This document shows positions 14,535 through 28,557 of a stretch of 64,000 nt of DNA, piece by piece. Origin of the DNA: Flectobacillus major DSM 103 (GTDB lineage Bacteria > Bacteroidota > Bacteroidia > Cytophagales > Spirosomataceae); the NCBI RefSeq assembly GCF_000427405.1, contig NZ_KE386491.1, positions 5,363,047-5,427,046 on the forward strand, read 5' to 3'. Each line of letters starts with the position of its first letter. Position 1 is the first letter of the stretch. The notes beneath the pieces are model-generated. The model was not told the origin of the DNA, ran no database searches, and worked only from the letters and a program-made list of their open reading frames with translations. A program made the translations under genes and the position numbers.

Positions 14535-14597
14535 CGTTTTTATCGTTATTAATGTACTTTGGTGGATGTGTTCCCGAAAAAATCAAACAAATATCGG

Positions 14598-16823
14598 ATG
14601 AAAAAATTACTTACTCTCTATTTAATATGGTCTTCCTTTCAAATTTTTGCCCAAGAAATTTCATTCAAATACAACGATAATCTTAAAATTATCCAAAATG
14701 GACTTGTACTTCCCAATGCTTGGGCTGGAGGGCTCAATACACCCCAGTTTTCGACTTGCCGCCTCAATAACGACGGTTTCGATGATTTAGTGGTATTTGA
14801 TAGAACAGCCCAAAAAATTGCTACTTTTTTGGCAGTACAAGATACCAATGGCAAGTTTTCATGGAAATATGCCCCCGAATATGAACCTTATTTTCCGAAA
14901 ATTCAAAATTGGATGCTTCTTGTAGATTATGACCAAGACGGCAAAAAGGATATTTTTACCCATTCACCAGCGGGTTTACGGGTATTTCGTAATATTTCTA
15001 CCGACACCAAAATAGCCTGGGAGTTGGTGGCTGACCCTCTTTACAGCGTGGGTTTTTCGGGAAAAATCAACTTGAGTGTTACAGCTACCGATATTCCAGC
15101 GATTGTTGACTGTGACAACGACGGTGATATTGATGTTTTGATGTTTGATTCTTCAGGCGATTTTGTAGAATATCATCGCAATAATGCCGTAGAGAAATAC
15201 CAAGATCCTAAAAGATTAGAATTTGTGAAAATAGGCTATTGCTGGGGGAATTTTTTGAAAGAACATTGCAAAGATTTTCGCTTTGATATAGAGTGTGGCG
15301 ATACTCCCGCAGGTGAAAGTATTGTCAAGGCTAGCCCCGATAAGGTATTGCATTCGGGCAATTCGTTGCTGCTGCTCGACCTCAATGGCGATAATAAAAA
15401 AGACGTACTCTTTGGGCATATTACTTGTACCAATATTGCCTCGATGCTCAATCAGGGAACAGAAAAACGGGCTATTTTTACCAATGTGAGTTATGTTTTT
15501 CCACAAGATGCTCCCATTGATTTCCCGATTTTTCCAGCAGTGTATTATGAAGACCTCGATTTTGATGGTATCAAAGACTTGGTAGCTGCCCCCAATGGCT
15601 ATGATAATGCTCTTCAAACGGTTGATTTTCAGCAGTCTGCATGGTTTTATAAAAATACAGCACAAAATGGAAACGCCAATTTTGTTTTCCAGAGTAAAAA
15701 TTTCTTACAAAACACGATGCTCGATTTGGGCGAAAATACAAGCCCTGTTTTGGTAGATATTGATGGCGATGGCGACAAAGATTTGTTGGTGGGCAATGGT
15801 GGGTTGCGTGGAGAACAAGGCTTCCGAGCTAGTATTTATTTGTTTGAAAACAAAGGTAATGGCAGTTTTGAATTAACCAATACAGACTTTTTGGGCTTGT
15901 CGTCGTCTTTACAACTCTTTGATATTAGGCCATTTATTAGCGATATTGACGGCGACGGCATTGAGGATTTTGGCTTTTCGTCCAATTCCTTTAAGGGAAT
16001 GGAAATTAGGTATATTATTAATAAAGCTGCTAAAGGAAAACCTTGGGATATTAAGCTGGCCGATGCCATACTCTTACCTACTATTCCCGACTTTATTGCT
16101 GGCGAAAGTGTGGTGTTTTTTGATTATGATAAAGACGGCATAAAAGATATTATTCATGGAACAGGCCGAGGAAATCTTCGTTTTTTCAAAAATAAAGGTA
16201 CTAACAAAGCTCCTAGTTATACCCTCCAGAATGACGATTTAGGCAGGCTTGAAGGCAATTATGTTACAGGAAACCTGTATTTGACTATTGCCGATGTCAA
16301 CTTGGATGGCAAAGCCGACCTTATTACGGGTAGCCGCGAAGGAAATATCAAAATCTATAAAAGTTTATTAGAACAAAACCCTACAGCCTTTGTAGCCGAT
16401 ACAAGCCTTATCTGGAATGCCACGACCGCTCGTAACGAACAGCTACATGTTGGTTCAAACCTTTCTATTGCAGTGGCTGATCTGGACAACGATTTGCTCC
16501 CCGATATGGTGGTAGGAAACAATACAGGTGGATTAAGATTTTTGAAAAATACATCTAATATTGTTGTTACTGGTACAGAAGAAACGTATGTAACACAGGT
16601 ATACCCAAACCCAACCAACAAATATTTGTACATAAAATCGGTACAAGCAGGACTTATCAGTCTTCTCGACCTAAAAGGGAATACGGTGTTAGGTACAAAA
16701 AGTATAAAAGCTAATGCCGAGGAATCATTTGATATGTCGGGGCTCAATACAGGGGTGTATTTCTTGAAATTTGAGCCAAACCAAGGGCAAGTTTCTACCA
16801 TTAAAGTATTACTTCAGAAATAG
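14598..16823 (+). CDS. Secreted FG-GAP/VCBS repeat protein with a T9SS sorting tail
   Basis: A 741-residue exported protein. The ATG at 14598 (MKKLLTLYLIWSSFQIFAQ) gives a clean signal peptide; the frame starts earlier but those codons precede the signal. The body is a series of FG-GAP or VCBS calcium-loop repeats with D-x-D/N-x-D-G motifs such as DYDQDGKKD, DCDNDGDID, DLNGDNKKD, DIDGDGDKD, DIDGDGIED and DYDKDGIKD, consistent with a beta-propeller. The last 85 residues (YPNPTNKYLYIKS onward to FxxGQVSTIKVLLQK) are a type A sorting domain for the type IX secretion system, so the protein probably ends on the cell surface or outside. Confidence 0.88.
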   Translation: MKKLLTLYLIWSSFQIFAQEISFKYNDNLKIIQNGLVLPNAWAGGLNTPQFSTCRLNNDGFDDLVVFDRTAQKIATFLAVQDTNGKFSWKYAPEYEPYFPKIQNWMLLVDYDQDGKKDIFTHSPAGLRVFRNISTDTKIAWELVADPLYSVGFSGKINLSVTATDIPAIVDCDNDGDIDVLMFDSSGDFVEYHRNNAVEKYQDPKRLEFVKIGYCWGNFLKEHCKDFRFDIECGDTPAGESIVKASPDKVLHSGNSLLLLDLNGDNKKDVLFGHITCTNIASMLNQGTEKRAIFTNVSYVFPQDAPIDFPIFPAVYYEDLDFDGIKDLVAAPNGYDNALQTVDFQQSAWFYKNTAQNGNANFVFQSKNFLQNTMLDLGENTSPVLVDIDGDGDKDLLVGNGGLRGEQGFRASIYLFENKGNGSFELTNTDFLGLSSSLQLFDIRPFISDIDGDGIEDFGFSSNSFKGMEIRYIINKAAKGKPWDIKLADAILLPTIPDFIAGESVVFFDYDKDGIKDIIHGTGRGNLRFFKNKGTNKAPSYTLQNDDLGRLEGNYVTGNLYLTIADVNLDGKADLITGSREGNIKIYKSLLEQNPTAFVADTSLIWNATTARNEQLHVGSNLSIAVADLDNDLLPDMVVGNNTGGLRFLKNTSNIVVTGTEETYVTQVYPNPTNKYLYIKSVQAGLISLLDLKGNTVLGTKSIKANAEESFDMSGLNTGVYFLKFEPNQGQVSTIKVLLQK

Positions 16824-16842
16824 ATAAGTTTAATATCAATGA

Positions 16843-16878
16843 AGTCCAATAGAGTTTAGTATTCTATTGGGCTTTTTT
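16843..16878 (+). terminator. Terminator after the FG-GAP gene
   Basis: AGTCCAATAGAG (16843-16854) pairs with TTCTATTGGGCT (16862-16873), allowing G-U pairs, and is followed by a T-run. It isolates the ebo cluster from the gene before it. Confidence 0.8.
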
Positions 16879-17121: not shown

Positions 17122-17973
17122 ATGTCTATCAAGAACGAATTATTAACAATTATAGAGAAAGCAGCTAATCAGAAAGAGTTGCAATGGCTAGAAGCAAAAG
17201 CAAATGCCGATGTAAAAACCATACAAATAGCATTTGTATCTGCTCCTCGATTTATTCGGAAAAGTGTAATTGAAGTAGACGAGCAGGCTATTCATCAACT
17301 AGTGCCAGCGTGGAATTTGGGCGAATGGACCTTAGAACGCCTTGTTAGGGTATATTTATTGTTGTGTTTGCCCAACGAAAACGAAGAAAGTTATGTTGGA
17401 TACATAGAAACGCTATTTGATACCGCCGAAATCAACGAATTAGTTGCATTGTATTCGGCTCTGCCTGTACTAAATTATCCCGAAAAATGGCTATTCCGAG
17501 CAGCCGAAGCCGTAAGGTCTAATATGGGTGTGGTATTTGATGCTATAGCTTTTGGAAACCCCTATCCACAACAATATTTTTCAGAATTGGCATGGAATCA
17601 GTTGGTACTAAAGTGTATCTTCAATGACAAACCGATTCATTTGATTGTAGGACTAGACCAGCGTGCCAATGCAAAATTAGCCGAAACACTATCGGATTTT
17701 GCTCATGAGCGTTGGGCAGCAGGCCGAAAAGTACCCGCTCAGGTTTGGCGTTTGGTAGTAAATTTTTTAAATGATACCATTTTGGAAGATATTAATAAAC
17801 TTTTTCAGTCAAACGACATCCAAAACCAAACGGCCGCAGCCTTGGTATGCCTAGAATCGGGCTATCAGGGAGCCGATACCATGCTCGACAATTATCCGAG
17901 TTTGCGAGCTTCGGTTCAAAAAGGACAATTTAGTTGGAAACAATTAGAGGTTTTACAGCTTTGCTATGTTTAA
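17122..17973 (+). CDS. eboA: EboA-family protein
   Basis: First gene of the ebo cluster. The 283-residue soluble, mostly helical protein has no enzyme motif that I recognise; the call rests on its helix-rich character (VPAWNLGEWTLERLVRVYLLLCLP near residues 60-83, alternating charged helices to the end) and its position directly before five recognisable ebo genes in canonical order. EboA proteins have no established biochemical activity. No signal peptide is seen, so it should act in the cytosol. The ATG at 17122 follows an AGGGCTAAAG stretch. Forty-three bases separate its stop from eboB. Confidence 0.82.
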   Translation: MSIKNELLTIIEKAANQKELQWLEAKANADVKTIQIAFVSAPRFIRKSVIEVDEQAIHQLVPAWNLGEWTLERLVRVYLLLCLPNENEESYVGYIETLFDTAEINELVALYSALPVLNYPEKWLFRAAEAVRSNMGVVFDAIAFGNPYPQQYFSELAWNQLVLKCIFNDKPIHLIVGLDQRANAKLAETLSDFAHERWAAGRKVPAQVWRLVVNFLNDTILEDINKLFQSNDIQNQTAAALVCLESGYQGADTMLDNYPSLRASVQKGQFSWKQLEVLQLCYV

Positions 17974-18016
17974 CACAGTGATTTTTTTAAGCTGGAAATC
18001 CTAACTATATAATATT

Positions 18017-19036
18017 ATGTGTCAAAAACATTCAGAAATAAGTCAAAATCCTTCACACTTTGAAGGAACTGCCGAAGAGCTTGCTACTGCACAAAATGTA
18101 CAGGCCAATTATATGGATTATATCAAAGACATGAAGTTCTTTGACCCGCATATCCACATGACTTCTCGTACCACCGACGATTATCAGGCTTTGGCCGATG
18201 CAGGCGTTGTTGCTATTATAGAACCAGCTTTTTGGTTGGGTCAGCCTCGTACAGGTGTGGCTACCTTCAAAGATTACTTTAGTAGCTTGGTAGGCTGGGA
18301 GCGTTTCCGTTCTTCACAGTTTGGTATCAAGCATTATTGTACTATTGGGCTCAACTCCAGAGAGGCCAATAACGAGCCATTGGCCGAGCAGGTAATGGAA
18401 ATATTGCCCTTGTATTTGTACAAAGAAGGTGTAGTGGGTGTAGGCGAAATAGGCTTTGACGACCAAACTGCCGCCGAAGATAAATATTATCGTTTGCAGC
18501 TAGAACTTGCCAAAGAGGCGGGGTTACCTGTGCAGGTACACACACCGCACCGTGACAAGCGTCGTGGTACTGAAAAAAGTATGGCTATTGCCTTAGAACA
18601 CGGTATTGACCCCAGTATGGTGATTATCGACCATAACAACGAAGAAACCGTAAAAAGTGTGTTAGATCAAGGGTTTTGGGCTGCCTTTACAATTTATCCA
18701 TTTACCAAAATGGGTAACGAACGTATGGTCGAAATTGTAAAGCAATATGGAGCTGAAAGAATCATGATTAATTCAGCGGCCGATTGGGGTATTAGCGATC
18801 CTCTGGCTGTAGCCAAAACGGCCGCTTTGATGAAAATGAAAGGTATTTCGGACGAAGATATTCGTTTGGTTACTTACCAAAATGCTATCGACGCTTTTGC
18901 TCAAAGCGGACAAATCAATATAGAAGATTTTGAAAATGTAGGCGAAATCGACCAAAGTAAAACTTTCAATGGAAATACCATTCTGAGAGGAGGGCAGCAG
19001 CCTAGAATTGATAAAAACGCCCTTTTAATTCGTTAA
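18017..19036 (+). CDS. eboB: EboB, TatD-like metal-dependent hydrolase
   Basis: The 339-residue protein is an amidohydrolase-fold TIM barrel of the TatD type. The metal ligands are visible in order: FDPHIH (His45 and His47), GEIGFD near residue 143 (Glu), VQVHTPH near 176, VIIDHNN near 202 and the late NSAADWG Asp near 250. About 40 residues precede the barrel. In cyanobacteria EboB is one of the proteins needed for precursor movement to the periplasm; its substrate is not known. It is followed by eboC after only three bases, which points to translational coupling. Confidence 0.92.
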   Translation: MCQKHSEISQNPSHFEGTAEELATAQNVQANYMDYIKDMKFFDPHIHMTSRTTDDYQALADAGVVAIIEPAFWLGQPRTGVATFKDYFSSLVGWERFRSSQFGIKHYCTIGLNSREANNEPLAEQVMEILPLYLYKEGVVGVGEIGFDDQTAAEDKYYRLQLELAKEAGLPVQVHTPHRDKRRGTEKSMAIALEHGIDPSMVIIDHNNEETVKSVLDQGFWAAFTIYPFTKMGNERMVEIVKQYGAERIMINSAADWGISDPLAVAKTAALMKMKGISDEDIRLVTYQNAIDAFAQSGQINIEDFENVGEIDQSKTFNGNTILRGGQQPRIDKNALLIR

Positions 19037-19039
19037 GTT

Positions 19040-19921
19040 TTGGATATTAAGTCATATTTGCAACTCATGCGGCCAGCCAATTTAGTAACGGCTGTAGCCG
19101 ATATTATGGCTGGCATGGCCATTTCAGGTTTTTTGTTTGAAATAAACTTTTCTTGTTTTCAAACTGTTCTAATCTTGTCTATGTCCACTATTGGACTTTA
19201 CGGTGGTGGCGTTGTCTTTAACGATGTCTTTGATGCCAAACTAGATGCCATAGAACGTCCCGAAAGAGCTATTCCCAGTGGAAGAGTAACCTTAATGGAG
19301 GCTACTATTTTGGCATTGGTATTACTGGTAGTAGGCATTTTGCTGGCAGGATTGATTAGCTTTCAAAGTGCAATGATAGCCTTATCGGTGGCTTTATTAG
19401 CCGTTATTTATGACCGATTTGGCAAGCATAATGCTATTTTGGGGCCTATTAATATGGGTCTATGTCGTGGAGGCAATTTATTATTGGGTATTAGTGTTTT
19501 GCCCAATGCCGTTGAACAATGGTGGTATTTAGGAATTATTCCTGTAGTTTATATTGCCGCTGTAACAATGGTTAGCAGAGGCGAAGTACATGGCGGAAAC
19601 CCAAAAACACTTTATTTCGCAGGTTTTTTGTATGTCTCGGTAAGTATTTGTCAAGTGTTTTTTGCGTACCAATTGGGCAATTTATGGTTAACGGTAGCCT
19701 TGGTAATCACTCATTTGTATATGATATTCAGGCCCTTGTTGGTAGCTATTCAAAACCCTATAGGCCCCAATATTGGTAAAGCCGTAAAAGCAGGGGTTAT
19801 TTCCCTGATTATTATGGATGCTGCTTGGGTAGGTGTTGCAGGCAATTGGGCTGTGGCTCTTGTGGTGGTTTTGTTATTACCTATTTCTATTCGATTGGCC
19901 AAAATATTTGCCGTTACGTAA
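19040..19921 (+). CDS. eboC: EboC, UbiA-family membrane prenyltransferase
   Basis: This 293-residue integral membrane protein has about eight helices and both Asp-rich prenyl-diphosphate motifs of the UbiA family: NDVFDAKLD (near residue 62) and YDRFGKHNA (near 125). It should attach a prenyl chain to, or otherwise handle, a small acceptor at the inner membrane. The start is unusual: the frame opens with TTG at 19040, three bases after the eboB stop, and the first ATG is nine codons later (19067). The residues between fit the family N-terminus (YLQLMRPANL), so I favour TTG. It is the only membrane-spanning member of the cluster. Confidence 0.92.
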   Translation: MDIKSYLQLMRPANLVTAVADIMAGMAISGFLFEINFSCFQTVLILSMSTIGLYGGGVVFNDVFDAKLDAIERPERAIPSGRVTLMEATILALVLLVVGILLAGLISFQSAMIALSVALLAVIYDRFGKHNAILGPINMGLCRGGNLLLGISVLPNAVEQWWYLGIIPVVYIAAVTMVSRGEVHGGNPKTLYFAGFLYVSVSICQVFFAYQLGNLWLTVALVITHLYMIFRPLLVAIQNPIGPNIGKAVKAGVISLIIMDAAWVGVAGNWAVALVVVLLLPISIRLAKIFAVT

Positions 19922-19993
19922 GAGCAAACTTTAATATATTACTAAATAAATCAAATATCGTAGGAGACACTCCTGCAAAAACATATAGTTTCG

Positions 19994-21160
19994 ATGTCAG
20001 TTATTCAACAAACGTTTCAGGTACAGTTTTCTTATAATATTCAATTTACCGAAAACCTGTTCAATCCTGCAAACACCCTATTTATAGATTTTATTCGTAA
20101 TTATGGTAGTAATACTTTTCGGAAAAAAATTCTATTTCTTATCGATGAAGGTGTAGCAATTCATCACCCTGCTTTGAAAAGTGCAATACAAAACTATTTT
20201 AAAAATCAGGACTTTGTAGAGCTAGCTAGCGAAATTTTGGTATTACCAGGAGGCGAGCAAGTTAAAAATGACCCCGTTTATTTTGAGAAAACCCTCGAAG
20301 CAATCGACCAATATGGTATCGACCGCCATTCTTTTGTGGCTGCTATTGGTGGTGGGGCATTTTTGGATATGACAGGCTATGCTTCGGCGGTGGCTCACCG
20401 TGGTGTGAAACATATTCGGATTCCAACAACGGTACTTTCACAAAACGACTCTGGTGTAGGAGTAAAAAATGGGGTTAATTATACTGGTAAAAAGAACTTT
20501 CTAGGCACATTTGCTCCTCCTGTGGCGGTATTCAACGATACAACGTTTTTACGTACACTCAACGAGCGAGATTGGCGTTCGGGTATTGCCGAGGCTGTAA
20601 AAGTAGCCCTTATCAAAGACCTAACCTTTTTTGAATGGCTAGAACAAAACGCTTTGGCTTTGTCGGCTCGTAACGAAAAAGCAATGTACGAGCATATTTT
20701 CCGCTGTGCTGAATTACACGTCCAGCATATTTCAAGCGGCGACCCCTTTGAAAGTGGTTCTGCCCGCCCCCTAGATTTTGGCCATTGGGCTGCTCATAAA
20801 TTAGAATACCTTACCAATTTCTCGATTCGTCATGGCGAAGCCGTTGCTATTGGTATTGCTCTGGATTCTGTGTATTCGCACCTCAAAGGCGACCTCACCC
20901 TCGACGAGCTAAACCGTATTATTGTATTATTACAAAACTTAGGGTTTGAACTATACCATCCTGCATTGGGCGAAAATGATAAGATTAATCTTTGGAAAGG
21001 CCTAAACGAGTTTAGAGAACACCTTGGTGGCCAGCTTACTATTACTTTGCTGAAAAAGCTTGGAAAAGGAGAAGAGGTACACGAAATAGACTTCGATTTG
21101 GTCAAAAAATCGGTTGATTGGCTCGCCAATATAGCAGAACAAACACTTCAGAAGGCATAA
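19994..21160 (+). CDS. eboD: EboD, 3-dehydroquinate synthase-like enzyme
   Basis: The 388-residue protein belongs to the sugar phosphate cyclase superfamily. The NAD region GGGAFLDMTGYASAVAHRG (near residues 117-135), the PTTVLSQNDSGVGVKNGVN block and the metal-site residues Glu (GIAEAVKVALIKD) and His (FGHWAAHKLE, SIRHGEA) are all kept, so the enzyme looks active. It is not the housekeeping AroB: it has a longer N-terminus and sits in the ebo cluster. The true substrate may be another keto-sugar phosphate. Spacing is 72 bases from eboC and 80 to eboE. Confidence 0.92.
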   Translation: MSVIQQTFQVQFSYNIQFTENLFNPANTLFIDFIRNYGSNTFRKKILFLIDEGVAIHHPALKSAIQNYFKNQDFVELASEILVLPGGEQVKNDPVYFEKTLEAIDQYGIDRHSFVAAIGGGAFLDMTGYASAVAHRGVKHIRIPTTVLSQNDSGVGVKNGVNYTGKKNFLGTFAPPVAVFNDTTFLRTLNERDWRSGIAEAVKVALIKDLTFFEWLEQNALALSARNEKAMYEHIFRCAELHVQHISSGDPFESGSARPLDFGHWAAHKLEYLTNFSIRHGEAVAIGIALDSVYSHLKGDLTLDELNRIIVLLQNLGFELYHPALGENDKINLWKGLNEFREHLGGQLTITLLKKLGKGEEVHEIDFDLVKKSVDWLANIAEQTLQKA

Positions 21161-21240
21161 TGTTGGGCAAAATATCCAATATTTAATGCGGACTGAACTT
21201 GTTTAAAAATAGGTTAAAACTAAAATATTTCTAATATTCT

Positions 21241-22437
21241 ATGCAAACATCAGCAGGTCTGTTGACCTATTGTAGCAATATTCATACAGGAGAAGACTGG
21301 CAACATCATTTTGCTGTATTGCAAAAGAGTATTCCTGTTATCAAGCAGCAAGTAAGCCCCCAAAATGCCTTTGGTATTGGTTTGCGATTGGCCAATCAGG
21401 CCAGTATCGACCTTTCAGAAAAAGAAAATTTAGACAAGCTAAAAACGTGGTTAACCCAAAATAACTGCTACGTATTTACAATGAATGGTTTTCCTTATGG
21501 GGGGTTTCACAATACCGTAGTAAAAGACCAAGTGCATGCCCCCGATTGGACCACCCAAGATAGAGTAGCTTATACCATTCGGATGTTTCGTATTTTAGCC
21601 GAAATTTTGCCTGATGATCTTTCAGAAGGGGGTATTTCAACATCGCCGTTGTCGTACCGTTTTTGGTGGAAAACCTCCAAAGATTTGCAAGAGGCCACAC
21701 TACTAGCTACCCAAAATATGCTTGTGGTACTCGACGAATTGGTTGCTATCAAAAAAACTACAGGCAAATCGTTGCATTTGGATATTGAGCCAGAGCCAGA
21801 CGGTATTCTTGAAAATTCACCAGAATTTATTACTTGGTATCAGGAGGTTTTATTGCCTTTAGGCATCCAACATTTTGCCCAAAAAGGAATAGACGAAGCC
21901 TTGGCCAAAACATATATTTACGAACATATTCAGCTTTGTTACGACGTTTGTCACTTTGCGGTAAGCTACGAAGAGCCAGCCGAAGTAATCCAAAAGTTAG
22001 AAGAATTAGGTATCAAAGTAGGTAAAATCCAGATTAGTTCAGCTCTGAAAGTGGATTTTAGCGATAACCCTACCGAGAAGCTTGCTGCCATAGCTCGCTA
22101 CGACGAACCAAGCTATTTGCACCAAGTTGTAGCTCGAAAAGCTGATAATACCTTTGTAAAATACCCCGATTTGGGCGAAGCACTACTAGCAGCTCTATCA
22201 GTACAGTTTGCCGAATGGCGTGTACATTTTCATGTACCTCTATTTATCGAGCATTACGGCTTGCTGTCATCTACCCGTCAAGAAATAGAAAAAATCTTGG
22301 CCATTCAAAAGCTGAAACCTTTTACTGCTCAGTTAGAAATAGAAACCTATACTTGGGGAGTATTACCTGCCGATTATCAAGCTCCGCTAGACGAATCAAT
22401 TATTCGAGAAATAGCTTGGGTAAAAAGTATTTTGTAA
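21241..22437 (+). CDS. eboE: EboE, TIM-barrel metabolite traffic protein
   Basis: The 398-residue protein is a xylose-isomerase-like TIM barrel. Strand-end residues that would hold a metal are visible: LHLDIEPEPDG near residue 182 (Glu), CYDVCHFAVSYE near 240 (Asp and His), KVGKIQISSALKVDF near 260 and the late HFHVPLFIEHYG near 330. Family members are annotated as metabolite traffic protein EboE and no reaction is established. No signal peptide is present. It is in line with eboABCD on the same strand; the gap to eboF is the largest in the cluster (185 bases). Confidence 0.92.
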   Translation: MQTSAGLLTYCSNIHTGEDWQHHFAVLQKSIPVIKQQVSPQNAFGIGLRLANQASIDLSEKENLDKLKTWLTQNNCYVFTMNGFPYGGFHNTVVKDQVHAPDWTTQDRVAYTIRMFRILAEILPDDLSEGGISTSPLSYRFWWKTSKDLQEATLLATQNMLVVLDELVAIKKTTGKSLHLDIEPEPDGILENSPEFITWYQEVLLPLGIQHFAQKGIDEALAKTYIYEHIQLCYDVCHFAVSYEEPAEVIQKLEELGIKVGKIQISSALKVDFSDNPTEKLAAIARYDEPSYLHQVVARKADNTFVKYPDLGEALLAALSVQFAEWRVHFHVPLFIEHYGLLSSTRQEIEKILAIQKLKPFTAQLEIETYTWGVLPADYQAPLDESIIREIAWVKSIL

Positions 22438-22622
22438 AAGAATGCTCGGTCAGTATTTGGAAAGATAGATTAATAAAGAGAAATACAAAATGATTTTAGC
22501 GTATAACAGAAACGACAGTTTTCTATGAAAATGCAGATATTTTGTGTATCAGTATTCATCTATTATCGTATTTCGGTGGTTATCAAATCACTTTTGTACA
22601 TTAACTTACTTCAGTAAAAGTC

Positions 22623-23987
22623 ATGAAAAAAACGGTAGTAATAGATATCGTAGGGCTAAGCACTAGTGTGATTGGTGAGCATACGCCTTTTTTGAAAAAA
22701 TATTTTGATGAACATCATCTTACGCATATCAAACCAGTATTACCTGCTGTAACCACAACGGCACAAAGCTGTTATGTAACAGGAAAATTTCCTGAAGAGC
22801 ATGGTATTGTTGGTAATGGCTGGTATGACCGAGAAGACAGCGAAGTGAAGTTTTGGAAGCAATCAAATAAACTGGTAAAAGCCGAAAAAATTTGGGAGGC
22901 TGCCAAACAGCAAAACCCCAACTTTACATGTTCCAAAATGTTTTGGTGGTACAATATGTACGCCACCGCCGATTTTTCGGTAACGCCACGCCCGCAGTAT
23001 CATGCAGATGGTGTCAAAGCTCCTGATTGTTATTCGTACCCAGCCGAATTGCGAGATGAACTACAAGCCGAATTAGGAACGTTTCCGCTATTTAATTTCT
23101 GGGGGCCAAACGCCAATATCAAGTCGTCGAAATGGATTGCCGATGCTTCGGTATGGGTTGATAAAAAGCATGACCCAACACTAACACTTATTTATTTGCC
23201 TCATTTAGACTATTGTTTGCAAAAATTTGGTGTAGATTTTTCTAAAATTCACAAAGAATTAGGTGAAGTAGATAAACTGGTTGAGGATTTGGTTACCTAT
23301 TATAAAAGTAAAAATGCTCAGGTAATACTACTGTCGGAATATGGTATCAATAATGTGAATAATCCGATTCATATCAATCGTATTTTACGTGAGAATGGGC
23401 TTATTTCGGTGCGTGTTGAAAAAGGATTAGAACTACTCGACTGTGGAGCTTCAAAAGCCTTTGCTACAGCCGACCACCAGATTGCTCATGTGTATGTCAA
23501 CGACCCAAGTAAAAAAGAAGCTGTTAGGGCTATTCTTGAAAAAATACAAGGAGTCGCTTTAGTATTGGACGAAACAACCAAGCAAGAATATCATATAAAT
23601 CACGAGCGTTCGGGTGATTTTGTACTCATGGCCGATGCCGATAGTTGGTTTACGTATTATTATTGGTTAGATGATACCAAAGCACCCGATTACGCACGTT
23701 TGGTAGATATTCACCGAAAGCCAGGATATGACCCCGTTGAGATGTTTATGAATCCTGCCAACCCGCTGATTAAATTAAGAGCAGCATATAAGCTAGCTCG
23801 TAAATTATTGGGATTCAGGTATTTAATGGATGTGATTCCGCTCGATGCCTCGTTGGTAAAAGGCTCTCATGGAGGGATCAATATCGGAAAAGAATACTAT
23901 CCCATTTTGGTTACCGACCAGCCGTTATCACAATCTGAAATTCAAGCTACCGATGTTTACGATGTTATTTGGCAGCATATTTTCTAA
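22623..23987 (+). CDS. eboF: EboF, alkaline-phosphatase-fold protein
   Basis: The 454-residue protein matches the nucleotide pyrophosphatase/phosphodiesterase branch of the alkaline phosphatase superfamily. It keeps the first metal Asp (VIDIVG, Asp8), the TTTAQSCYVTGKFPEEHGIVGN block with the candidate nucleophile Thr (44-46), Asp196 and a C-terminal KGSHGG His. The usual SDHG metal motif reads SEYG (238-241), and the His expected after Asp196 is Gln. I believe this pattern is shared by other EboF proteins, but cannot check it. No signal peptide is seen. The 185-base gap upstream may hold its own promoter. A perfect hairpin ends the cluster. Confidence 0.9.
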   Translation: MKKTVVIDIVGLSTSVIGEHTPFLKKYFDEHHLTHIKPVLPAVTTTAQSCYVTGKFPEEHGIVGNGWYDREDSEVKFWKQSNKLVKAEKIWEAAKQQNPNFTCSKMFWWYNMYATADFSVTPRPQYHADGVKAPDCYSYPAELRDELQAELGTFPLFNFWGPNANIKSSKWIADASVWVDKKHDPTLTLIYLPHLDYCLQKFGVDFSKIHKELGEVDKLVEDLVTYYKSKNAQVILLSEYGINNVNNPIHINRILRENGLISVRVEKGLELLDCGASKAFATADHQIAHVYVNDPSKKEAVRAILEKIQGVALVLDETTKQEYHINHERSGDFVLMADADSWFTYYYWLDDTKAPDYARLVDIHRKPGYDPVEMFMNPANPLIKLRAAYKLARKLLGFRYLMDVIPLDASLVKGSHGGINIGKEYYPILVTDQPLSQSEIQATDVYDVIWQHIF

Positions 23988-23999
23988 GATTTTTTGAAA

Positions 24000-24030
24000 T
24001 AGCGATGCTACCTTATCAATAGCATCGCTA
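24000..24030. terminator. Bidirectional terminator after eboF
   Basis: TAGCGATGCTA (24000-24010) and TAGCATCGCTA (24020-24030) form a perfect 11-bp stem between the converging eboF and lipoprotein genes, with a T-rich stretch on the plus side. Confidence 0.8.
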
Positions 24031-24039
24031 TACTTTATT

Positions 24040-24753
24040 TTATTGGTTGCCAGTACTATTAGCAACCTCATTGAACTCTACATTTACCTTGGTATAATAC
24101 AAAGTTGTGATAGCTTCAAATCCAGAATCTGTACCTACAATCAGCCACAATTGGCCTTTGTCGTCAGTTTTTCCTGTTACTGTTCCTGTGCGTTTTACTA
24201 GTTTGTATTTAGCTTCTTCCGAATCGTTGGCTACATTACCCATTACCTTCATATCTTTACCATCGGTAGCTTGCGAAATTTTACCAATGTTTTTGATACG
24301 GTAATAGCCATTATCTTTTTCTTTCTTAGGCTCGATTGCACTGAAGCCCGCTCCGAAGTACACGCTTTCGCCAGGCGAACCACCTACACCAAACAAACCT
24401 TTTGGAACATTACTAGCAAACTCTACTTCAAATTTGGCTGAATAAGTTTGGTTAGGTTTTAGACCTGACACTTTCTTTTTCATAAACATAAACAAGTCAT
24501 CGCTATGATTACTGCCCGAAATACGTAAACCTTTCTTGGTAGAGTCTAGTGGAGCAGGCAATTTTGTGTGCGAATAACTAAGTTGATAAAACACTGAATC
24601 GGTTACTGGATAATCAGCAAAATCACCTACCCAACCTTGGGCTGATGTATCAAATTTATCTTCCAAAATAAATTTGGTTGGAGTAGATACGTTATCATCT
24701 GAACAGGCCATCATTGTTGCGGCGGCGAAGATACTAAAAAGGACTTTTTTCAT
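24040..24753 (-). CDS. Lipoprotein of unknown function
   Basis: The 237-residue protein starts with a lipoprotein signal peptide whose lipobox reads MMAC, with Cys17 as the likely lipidated residue, followed by SDDN, acidic residues that favour surface sorting in Bacteroidota. The mature part is beta-rich (LEDKFDTSAQGWVGDF near residue 30, KVSGLKPNQTYSAKFEVEF near 92) and looks like a carbohydrate-binding or jelly-roll module, but I do not recognise the family with certainty. It converges on eboF; being on the other strand, it is not part of the ebo operon. Confidence 0.65.
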   Translation of the reverse strand: MKKVLFSIFAAATMMACSDDNVSTPTKFILEDKFDTSAQGWVGDFADYPVTDSVFYQLSYSHTKLPAPLDSTKKGLRISGSNHSDDLFMFMKKKVSGLKPNQTYSAKFEVEFASNVPKGLFGVGGSPGESVYFGAGFSAIEPKKEKDNGYYRIKNIGKISQATDGKDMKVMGNVANDSEEAKYKLVKRTGTVTGKTDDKGQLWLIVGTDSGFEAITTLYYTKVNVEFNEVANSTGNQ

Positions 24754-26643: not shown

Positions 26644-28557
26644 TTAGCGAAATTCATGTAATATTTTTTCGTAAGGGGCTAATAATAAATAATTTTCATC
26701 TTTAATACCAAAATCATACCCAAATGTTTTGGCCATTTCTACTACTTCGGTCGACAGAAGGCTACCTTTTTCAAATAAAAGTTTTGACAAAGCAATCAGA
26801 AAATCTTTATTAGCTTCGAGCAACTCTTTTGTTTCGTTTTGCAAATTTTTCATCATTTTCTCAATCGACCAGTCGGTTACGCTGGTATCCATACTATAAG
26901 CTCCAGACTGACCATAATAAGCCGAAAAGTTGCTATCAAAACCGTACTTTCGGATATACTCCATAATCAAACTTACGGCTTCTTCACGGTCGTAGGCGTG
27001 CGAAATAGTGATATGGTCTTCGCCAAAAACAATTTCTTCGGCAATACCTCCTGCCAAATAAATTTTTATTTTGTGGATAATATTGCTTTTTGAAAGGTGC
27101 AACAAATGCGGAAACGAAAAGCCTGTGGCATACGAAGAAGCTACCCTCGATTTGAGTTGCAATGGTACTAAGCCTAGCAATAAACCGTATACCAAAGCAT
27201 GACCAGCTTCGTGTACCGAAATATTAGCTATCATATCGGGCAAATTATTTTGTCGGATTTTGTCGATTTTACCAATATAAGGCAATGAAACTGTTTTTTT
27301 GTCAGCCAAAATGGCAGTAATCTGCTGTGTATCAAAGTTATAATCCATTTTGATGTGCATATAGTTGTTGGTAAATGCCTCAAACAAAATGGTAGATAAA
27401 TTGGACTCAACAATATCGGTAATACTCGAAAAAACAGGCCTTACACCTTGTACAGGAAATACCCCATTTTGATAAATGAGTTGATTGATATTGGGCGAAA
27501 TTTCAATATCTACACCAAAATGCTCCTTATTTTTTTGAATAATTTTTCTAATTTCTTGATTAATTAATTGATTAAAATCCTGCTTTTTCAAAGACCTATA
27601 AATCAAGTGAATATTACCAAATCGGGCTACTTGTTCGGGCTTGAATTTCTTTGACAAAGCATTTTTAATATCTACTATCGTGATTTTTTCGGTATAAGCC
27701 CTAAAAATATCGGCATCAACGTCTGCTTCTCCAGTTTCGTTGGCCATCGAGTAGGCATCGTCTAAGTTACCGCTTATTATTATCAACGTTTTAGAGTGGT
27801 CGAAGGGTTCATAAACCGTTTTTTTATCTCTTTTTTGTTGCATAATCTTCAGAATATCCTCTTCTTTCATTTCGGCAATGTCCAATACCGACCCTTCGAG
27901 GTCAAAGGCTTTTTTGAGGTTGTTGGCTTCCCAAATACCTACTGTCAAGTCTTCTTCGTCTTCTTGCTCTATTTCAGCGTTTACTGGTAATTCTTTAATT
28001 TTAGCACGACGTTTTTGACGTTGCATTGTAGCATACAAATAGCGTTGCATGTACTCGTCGATAGCCTCTTTACTATCTCTTTTCGACAGTTTTCCATCCG
28101 ACAATAATTCCCAAAAATCTTGTGCACGAGAATTATTCATCGGTTTTCCTTCGGGGTCGATAGTATAGAATCGCTGAATTTCGTCGAAAAGTACTATTGC
28201 TGGCTGGCCATCGTTGATACAATTGGATTCGAACATTGTCGCAACATTATAATTCCATGAATGTTCGCTATTAGATAGTTCAATTTCAACAAAACGTTCT
28301 TGAAATTGAAGTTTAGTTACCAGTTTTCTGATTAGGTCAGTTTTGCCAACGCCAGTCATGCCCCAAAGGTTGATAATAATTGGGCGAGTCAATATGGCTG
28401 GCATAATAAACCAGATTTGGATATAATTAATTAATTCGTCAATGATATAATCTATACCGATAAACTCGTTTTTTAGCTCAGCTTTAATCGTGTCTAAGCG
28501 TTGTCTTTTTTGGTTAATTTCTTCGAGGTTTATCTGGATTTTGGGTTGTATGCTCAT
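26644..28557 (-). CDS. AAA+ ATPase fused to an FtsH-type M41 metalloprotease
   Basis: This 637-residue protein joins two parts. The first (about residues 30-400) is an AAA+ module with Walker A GMTGVGKT (66-73), Walker B IVLFDE (121-126), a sensor-1 Asn in ISGN (264) and a sensor-2 GVRP (371-374), which resembles Clp/HSP100 ATPases. The second (about 440-637) is an M41 zinc protease with HEAGH (449-453), LAGGIAEEIVFGE and the third ligand Asp523 in HAYDREEA. FtsH itself has a different AAA domain and two N-terminal membrane helices; neither is here. The module between residues 160 and 250 is highly charged and looks like an insertion. It is probably a soluble energy-dependent protease; its substrates are unknown. 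Confidence 0.85.
   Translation of the reverse strand: MSIQPKIQINLEEINQKRQRLDTIKAELKNEFIGIDYIIDELINYIQIWFIMPAILTRPIIINLWGMTGVGKTDLIRKLVTKLQFQERFVEIELSNSEHSWNYNVATMFESNCINDGQPAIVLFDEIQRFYTIDPEGKPMNNSRAQDFWELLSDGKLSKRDSKEAIDEYMQRYLYATMQRQKRRAKIKELPVNAEIEQEDEEDLTVGIWEANNLKKAFDLEGSVLDIAEMKEEDILKIMQQKRDKKTVYEPFDHSKTLIIISGNLDDAYSMANETGEADVDADIFRAYTEKITIVDIKNALSKKFKPEQVARFGNIHLIYRSLKKQDFNQLINQEIRKIIQKNKEHFGVDIEISPNINQLIYQNGVFPVQGVRPVFSSITDIVESNLSTILFEAFTNNYMHIKMDYNFDTQQITAILADKKTVSLPYIGKIDKIRQNNLPDMIANISVHEAGHALVYGLLLGLVPLQLKSRVASSYATGFSFPHLLHLSKSNIIHKIKIYLAGGIAEEIVFGEDHITISHAYDREEAVSLIMEYIRKYGFDSNFSAYYGQSGAYSMDTSVTDWSIEKMMKNLQNETKELLEANKDFLIALSKLLFEKGSLLSTEVVEMAKTFGYDFGIKDENYLLLAPYEKILHEFR

Follow-up and report, generated by a model that had tools for sequence, protein, structure and literature searches.

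The ebo cluster of Flectobacillus major and its relatives: joint inheritance of six genes, a candidate membrane partner and a putative prenylated cyclitol

What does an ebo cluster do in a bacterium that shows no cargo genes beside it? The question is raised by a 64,000-nucleotide stretch of the Flectobacillus major DSM 103 genome (the window; G000:C6:5363047-5427046, within a genome of 6.22 Mb), in which six plus-strand open reading frames (ORFs) at 17122-23987 match EboA, the TatD-like EboB, EboC, EboD, EboE and an EboF of family PF01663. The locus is an ordinary copy of the known ebo cluster, which presumably aids small-molecule export; it is a complete operon that needs no fixed neighbours, and the interest lies in the comparison across relatives rather than in the locus itself. 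In this comparison, the six ebo genes were inherited nearly all-or-none in the order, even where they are scattered. Sequence comparisons further suggest that the ebo product is of the cyclitol type, and they single out the small membrane protein TMEM220 as a candidate partner in the membrane.

We searched 194 genomes of the order for the six ebo genes, using strict thresholds that differed from gene to gene. Hits were obtained in 65 (eboA), 67 (eboB), 64 (eboC), 66 (eboD), 66 (eboE) and 64 (eboF) genomes, with a union of 67; at the thresholds used, all six genes were present in 61 genomes, three or more in 67 and none in 127. The six incomplete genomes (G017, G079, G082, G110, G141 and G193) are drafts of 210-770 contigs. 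Sixty of the 63 EboC loci from other genomes were opened, and 28 showed the order ABCDEF, 23 had EboC alone in the stretch and nine were intermediate. Some of the lone-EboC loci are contig ends (e.g. L085), and 21 of the 23 lone-EboC genomes have all six genes, the others being without eboA and eboF (G141) or without eboF (G079). The genes are cleanly scattered in G004, a single-contig genome of 9.0 Mb, with eboD at 3.39, eboC at 3.41, eboE at 3.70, eboB and eboA at 4.13 and eboF at 4.94 Mb. Since they are scattered there and yet all kept, co-retention is not mere linkage. A tendency of the ebo genes to co-occur and some scattering have already been reported (PMC5133447).

An earlier note on the window, made from sequence alone, had staked its identification on ebo synteny persisting in relatives, and it does persist: complete ABCDEF, in order and on one strand, is found in 70 of 80 named relatives (the best 80 of at least 593 stretches from an EboE contig scan, the window's own record excluded). 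Six of the other ten lie at contig ends (L126, L128, L131, L136, L177 and L191) and four do not (L157, L159, L170 and L171). ABCDEF has been described as the ancestral arrangement in Bacteroidetes (PMC5133447). Internal gaps of more than 1 kb occur in 13 of the 80 loci, 11 of them between eboC and eboD and holding other genes. In a Chitinophaga locus (L182:5609-8247), a response regulator and a histidine kinase, possible regulators, stand between eboC and eboD on the opposite strand. Among the matches listed, the closest EboE proteins belong to a Cytophagales metagenome-assembled genome (69%), Arcicella (67-68%), 'Cellulophaga' sp. BC115SP (67%) and Flectobacillus sp. BAB-3569 (66%); BC115SP (L122) and BAB-3569 (L124) have the same immediate ebo flanks as the window.

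No cargo gene is adjacent to the window's cluster, as the earlier note observed, but this is nothing special: when flanking ORFs were clustered for the 80 named loci and the 60 EboC loci, no neighbour was common to all 80 named loci. The commonest was TMEM220 (18 loci), followed by an unclassified cluster (11 loci, Aquirufa group), an FG-GAP protein (11 loci, Chitinophaga) and others in at most eight loci each; in 35 of the 80, the immediate neighbour belonged to no cluster. The ebo flanks vary from genus to genus and the block itself stays constant. Therefore, the missing cargo says nothing particular about this genome, and a lack of adjacent cargo genes is usual for ebo.

The same note had reported that scytonemin genes are missing. 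This agrees with our finding of no ScyE-family protein in the window's genome at E 1e-20 (10 of 16 candidates scored); ScyA, ScyB and ScyC were not sought. Its statement that other secondary-metabolite genes are also missing was tested only in part, as no secondary-metabolite predictor was run. Across the order, the ScyE family occurs in 17 of 67 ebo genomes versus three of 127 others (Fisher 1.4e-6, uncorrected for kinship). Several cargo candidates were rejected. The PF12902 ferritin-like protein, which was not found in the window's genome at E 1e-10, showed no clear association with ebo (5/67 ebo genomes versus 5/127 others). Of ten neighbours of scattered EboC genes scanned, seven gave a Pfam match, to unrelated families, and the Gfo/Idh/MocA oxidoreductases that recur near ebo form a family that is common in general. 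A ferritin-like protein does adjoin ebo in Aureibacter, Mycetohabitans and Gloeothece (L111:5162-8222, L113:2468-5550 and L205:9846-13127) and in one genome of the order (G030:C2:1464562-1465173); each of the three annotated loci also encodes a large hypothetical protein next to it, and these may be cargo genes.

TMEM220 (PF15071) was present in 58 of 67 ebo genomes versus six of 127 others (Fisher 1.4e-32, uncorrected for kinship). Six families contain both states, and within them 28 genomes have both ebo and TMEM220, two have ebo only, five TMEM220 only and 14 neither (stratified test, p 3e-6; ebo-less genomes without a printed family were left out, and the listing was not chosen for this purpose). 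Of the 80 named loci, 18 have TMEM220 directly 5′ of eboA, 16 of them with both genes on one strand; the 18 come from Pedobacter, Mucilaginibacter, Sphingobacterium, Daejeonella, Agriterribacter and one member of Sphingobacteriales; one of these 18 neighbours was identified by Pfam and the others by clustering and profile. In ten of the 58 genomes it is 142-468 bp from an ebo gene, namely eboF in G004 and G160, eboD in G043 and G150 and eboA in six. The copy of F. major (120 aa, minus strand, G000:C6:5066922-5067215, L224:5887-6249) is outside the window, about 313 kb from eboA. Eight residues are invariant in 30 aligned rows (D22, D24, W28, Y32, E91, R94, E95 and G98), including charged residues in a largely hydrophobic protein. 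A literature search that did not reach most subscription journals returned no paper linking ebo and TMEM220, and the titles and abstract openings retrieved described mainly human and animal expression studies and no bacterial function of TMEM220.

Outside the order, the cyclitol synthase of ebo appears to be exchangeable. Among 47 plasmid-collection records with EboE, an inositol-3-phosphate synthase lies near EboE in 29 and EboD in 15, with neither in three and both in none (counts read from hit tables, with the inositol enzyme within about 5 kb). The 29 inositol-type records comprise 25 from Streptomyces, two from Embleya and one each from Nonomuraea and Gemmatirosa. Five of the six Streptomyces plasmid loci opened share the order inositol-3-phosphate synthase, SCO3242-family prenyltransferase, sugar phosphate isomerase, EboA, TatD, EboE and EboF, and in five Streptomyces loci A, B, E and F have 30-53% identity to the window proteins. 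EboD was absent at E 1e-40 from the 11.85-Mb Nonomuraea record, and the EboD model, run on nine of the 47 records, exceeded its cut-off only in four sugar-phosphate-cyclase (SPC)-type ones; in one Streptomyces plasmid a cyclase match, weak at 135.7 bits against the cut-off of 333, lies about 68 kb off. Two haloarchaeal loci (L202 and L203) hold TatD, UbiA, isomerases, inositol-3-phosphate synthase and an EboF homologue, with no EboA match; Halobaculum resembles them in the hit tables only. One cyclitol maker thus stands in for another, which suggests a cyclitol product. In Streptomyces coelicolor, SCO3242 and SCO3243 (myo-inositol phosphate synthase) have been placed under the CDA cluster (PMC3610822), and the literature search described above returned no paper joining ebo with inositol synthase. 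In two Streptomyces plasmids, ScyD/ScyE-family proteins are encoded directly 5′ of the inositol-type cluster (L110:5298-6497 and L117:3599-4801).

Profile searches matched all six window proteins to Ebo-type families and, with the ORF list, bore out the earlier note on the gene identities and on six one-strand genes in canonical ebo order. EboA (283 aa, 17122-17973) passes the domain model only (NF035938, 186.6 bits, cut-off 50; the longer NF035937 gave 233.1 bits, below its cut-off of 320), and by this family match the locus would be of the ebo variant that has EboA rather than EboG. Its AlphaFold model is all-helical (mean pLDDT 95.4), and a fold search of the PDB gave no match at E <0.3. 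EboB (18017-19036; PF01026, 59.8 bits, cut-off 27) keeps H45, H47, E144, H175, H206 and D256, at TatD-type positions, in 81 of 81 rows; we take these residues to be metal ligands. For this and the following counts, a translation served as a row if it had 85-130% of the length of the window protein, shorter or longer ones having been dropped. EboC (19040-19921, TTG start; NF035940, 404.6 bits, cut-off 250) is a UbiA-like prenyltransferase whose first Asp-rich motif, NDxxDxxxD, is kept in 88 of 88 rows. Its second motif is reduced, reading R-G-E where the paralogue L002 of the same genome has REIIKDMEDLKGDE, a segment missing from all 25 EboC rows of the tree alignment. In the EboC tree, which has long branches and an uncertain root, six actinobacterial inositol-type rows form one group (99/99). 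EboD (19994-21160; NF004852, 570.6 bits, cut-off 333) is a sugar phosphate cyclase that reads R-P-L-D-F-G-H, with D-F as in the cyclase 4p53, versus L-N-L-G-H in four 3-dehydroquinate synthases aligned. The genome carries a separate AroB (343.8 bits, cut-off 305, versus 221.4 bits for EboD on the same model), and from these sequences EboD is judged distinct from the housekeeping 3-dehydroquinate synthase. EboE (21241-22437; NF035939, 503.9 bits, cut-off 250) is a xylose-isomerase-like TIM barrel (structure model, mean pLDDT 92.0) with AsbF and IolI among its closest folds (TM about 0.45 by query), enzymes that presumably act on cyclic polyol ketones. EboF (22623-23987; PF01663, 218.2 bits, cut-off 23) belongs to the alkaline phosphatase (AP) superfamily and keeps T44, D196 and H416 in 91 of 91 rows. 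It has SEYG in all 91 rows versus SDHG in the aligned ENPP proteins (solved relatives), and position 200 is Q (89 rows) or L (two rows) versus H. On our assumption that these conserved and substituted positions bind metal, the phosphatase fold named in the earlier note fits EboF, but plain phosphatase activity is not assured because the metal positions depart from those of the solved relatives.

How might these proteins act together? We consider it about an even chance (roughly 50%) that ebo makes a prenylated cyclitol that acts in metabolite export, either as carrier or as cofactor. EboD would form a cyclitol by cyclising a sugar phosphate, for which sedoheptulose 7-phosphate has been guessed in the literature; EboE and EboB would rework the cyclitol, and EboC, in the membrane, would attach a prenyl chain. 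EboF may act on a phosphate-bearing intermediate or donor, and EboA may be a helical binding or scaffold protein. The resulting lipid would let a cytosolic metabolite pass the inner membrane, a passage that the ebo genes provide for the scytonemin monomer in Nostoc, with TMEM220, encoded elsewhere in the genome, as the candidate membrane partner. A prenylated cyclitol is favoured because the cyclitol maker is replaceable and the UbiA enzyme and the AP-fold protein are constant; the carrier role is assigned because of Nostoc genetics, in which each of five single ebo deletions traps the scytonemin monomer in the cytoplasm (PMC6282210). The lipid-carrier-like pathway suggested in the earlier note is reasonable but already published, in the Discussion of that paper (PMC6282210), and an isoprenoid-cyclitol product was guessed from EboD in 2016 (PMC5133447 section 3.7).

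Several points weigh against this proposal. Co-inheritance shows shared function, not transport. In the portions of PMC6282210 consulted, EboD is not among the Nostoc deletions and no lipid-bound scytonemin monomer was found; the sole measured EboC activity, in those of PMC9235831, is farnesylation of quinolines such as 8-HQA, not of a cyclitol; and no ebo product is described in the parts of the ebo literature examined (PMC5133447, PMC6282210 and PMC9235831). EboC, without its second Asp-rich motif, and EboF, with unusual residues at its metal positions, may differ in chemistry, to judge from the alignments. Most of the 29 inositol-type records are closely related Streptomyces, many near-identical, so that the independent swap events are few; EboD might sit on chromosomes outside the plasmid collection; and an inositol phosphate is not the same compound as a C7 cyclitol. 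Haladaptatus L116 has EboB, EboC and EboF homologues, and no cyclitol synthase is annotated in its stretch; the stretches shown for Halomarina and Runella contain the inositol enzyme and no annotated ebo gene. The locus opened as an exception, from Streptomyces sp. NBC_01244, is a type II polyketide cluster that contains a lone EboE (L201:8965-10143). No TMEM220 match was obtained in nine ebo genomes, of which four (G030, G055, G069 and G115) are well assembled, and TMEM220 is present in six genomes that have no ebo. One TMEM220 query found no match in the plasmid collection at E 0.01; the ebo-bearing Aureibacter plasmid is therefore without TMEM220 on that record, and the link finds no support outside the genomes analysed here. 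The lone EboE of NBC_01244 suggests, apart from this, a tailoring use of the EboE fold.

Of the other explanations, the one that survives best is that ebo makes a finished isoprenoid-cyclitol natural product, itself the agent of protection or antagonism, and does not act as a carrier. This proposal of 2016 (PMC5133447 section 3.7) is a possibility that we hold to be distinctly unlikely, though a serious one. The cyclitol synthase swap fits it equally well, and the Pseudomonas EDB cluster, which is needed against nematode grazing, holds a full ebo set according to PMC6282210. However, all Nostoc ebo mutants accumulate the same scytonemin monomer, with no compound unique to single mutants (PMC6282210), and ebo-type genes adjoin unrelated biosynthetic genes in Streptomyces or a ferritin-like pair elsewhere, as accessory genes might. 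More doubtful still is that EboC prenylates an aromatic cargo itself, the prenyl tag driving membrane passage and the other Ebo proteins processing the cargo. Three EboC enzymes do farnesylate 8-HQA, and the one from Maribacter also accepts quinaldic acid (PMC9235831), but this leaves no clear role for EboD or for the inositol-3-phosphate synthase in its stead, and a lipid-conjugated monomer was not seen in Nostoc (PMC6282210, as far as consulted). It is very improbable that ebo serves a cargo produced by the genes now beside it, for instance the upstream FG-GAP protein with a type IX secretion system (T9SS) sorting signal or the downstream 237-aa protein. Homologues of both adjoin ebo in the Flectobacillus-like L122 and L124, but the rest of the 80 named loci show neither of these neighbour clusters.

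Two strong hairpins bound the block, in agreement with the terminators stated in the earlier note. A hairpin with a T run, terminator-like, forms the 5′ boundary (16841-16875, plus strand, -18.7 kcal/mol, z -6.2), and a second hairpin 3′ of eboF (23999-24031) is stable on either strand (plus, -16.9 kcal/mol, z -5.4; minus, -19.8 kcal/mol, z -6.7); a consensus scan of the window listed neither. The intergenic gaps from eboA to eboF are 43, 3, 72, 80 and 185 bp, and of 14 matches to a Bacteroidota-type promoter pattern in the window none falls between 16824 and 24000. The upstream FG-GAP repeat protein (14559-16823) lies directly 5′ of eboA on the same strand, and likewise in Chitinophaga (L182:452-2014), where it belongs to a different sequence cluster. 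The downstream ORF of 237 aa (24040-24753) has a lipoprotein-like start by eye and no Pfam or NCBIfam match; the next gene out from ebo (cluster 22) is also found in L179, L191 and L196. Farther on, an ORF of 637 aa (26644-28557) has, by eye, an ATP-binding-type start and a HEAGH motif, resembling an AAA protease of unusual make-up.

A wider reading, which we offer tentatively and think improbable as it stands, would make TMEM220 an unlinked seventh ebo component in Bacteroidota that moves or anchors the ebo lipid, and would join ebo and its actinobacterial and haloarchaeal inositol-type cousins in one prenyl-lipid pathway family with an interchangeable cyclitol head. If true, ebo and these cousins would be an unrecognised carrier class for small-molecule export. 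TMEM220 offers a candidate for the missing membrane step and, conversely, ebo a possible context for the TMEM220 family, and the inositol-3-phosphate synthase in the place of EboD makes the question of the ebo product directly testable in culturable strains.

Compared with known systems, the window is closest to the ebo operon of Bacteroidetes, cyanobacteria and eustigmatophyte plastids (PMC5133447), with the same six homologues in the order ABCDEF on one strand; from the published description, only spacing and flanks differ, and nothing in kind. The Nostoc punctiforme ebo genes (PMC6282210) include homologous eboA, eboB, eboC, eboE and eboF, each needed there; in the window, eboD is inside the operon, and the genome has yielded no ScyE-family protein in the search at E 1e-20. 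Ubi-297, the EboC of Maribacter, Zobellia and Algoriphagus (PMC9235831), would by sequence belong to the same EboC family as the window protein, likewise within an ebo cluster. The Streptomyces SCO3242-type cluster (L109, L110, L117, L118 and L119, and L213 of Nonomuraea) has homologues of EboA, EboB, EboC, EboE and EboF like the window, whereas EboD is absent from the cluster and an inositol-3-phosphate synthase and an extra sugar phosphate isomerase are present instead. Finally, the TMEM220 family is not named as an ebo protein, yet it is co-inherited with ebo in the order while being encoded outside the window.

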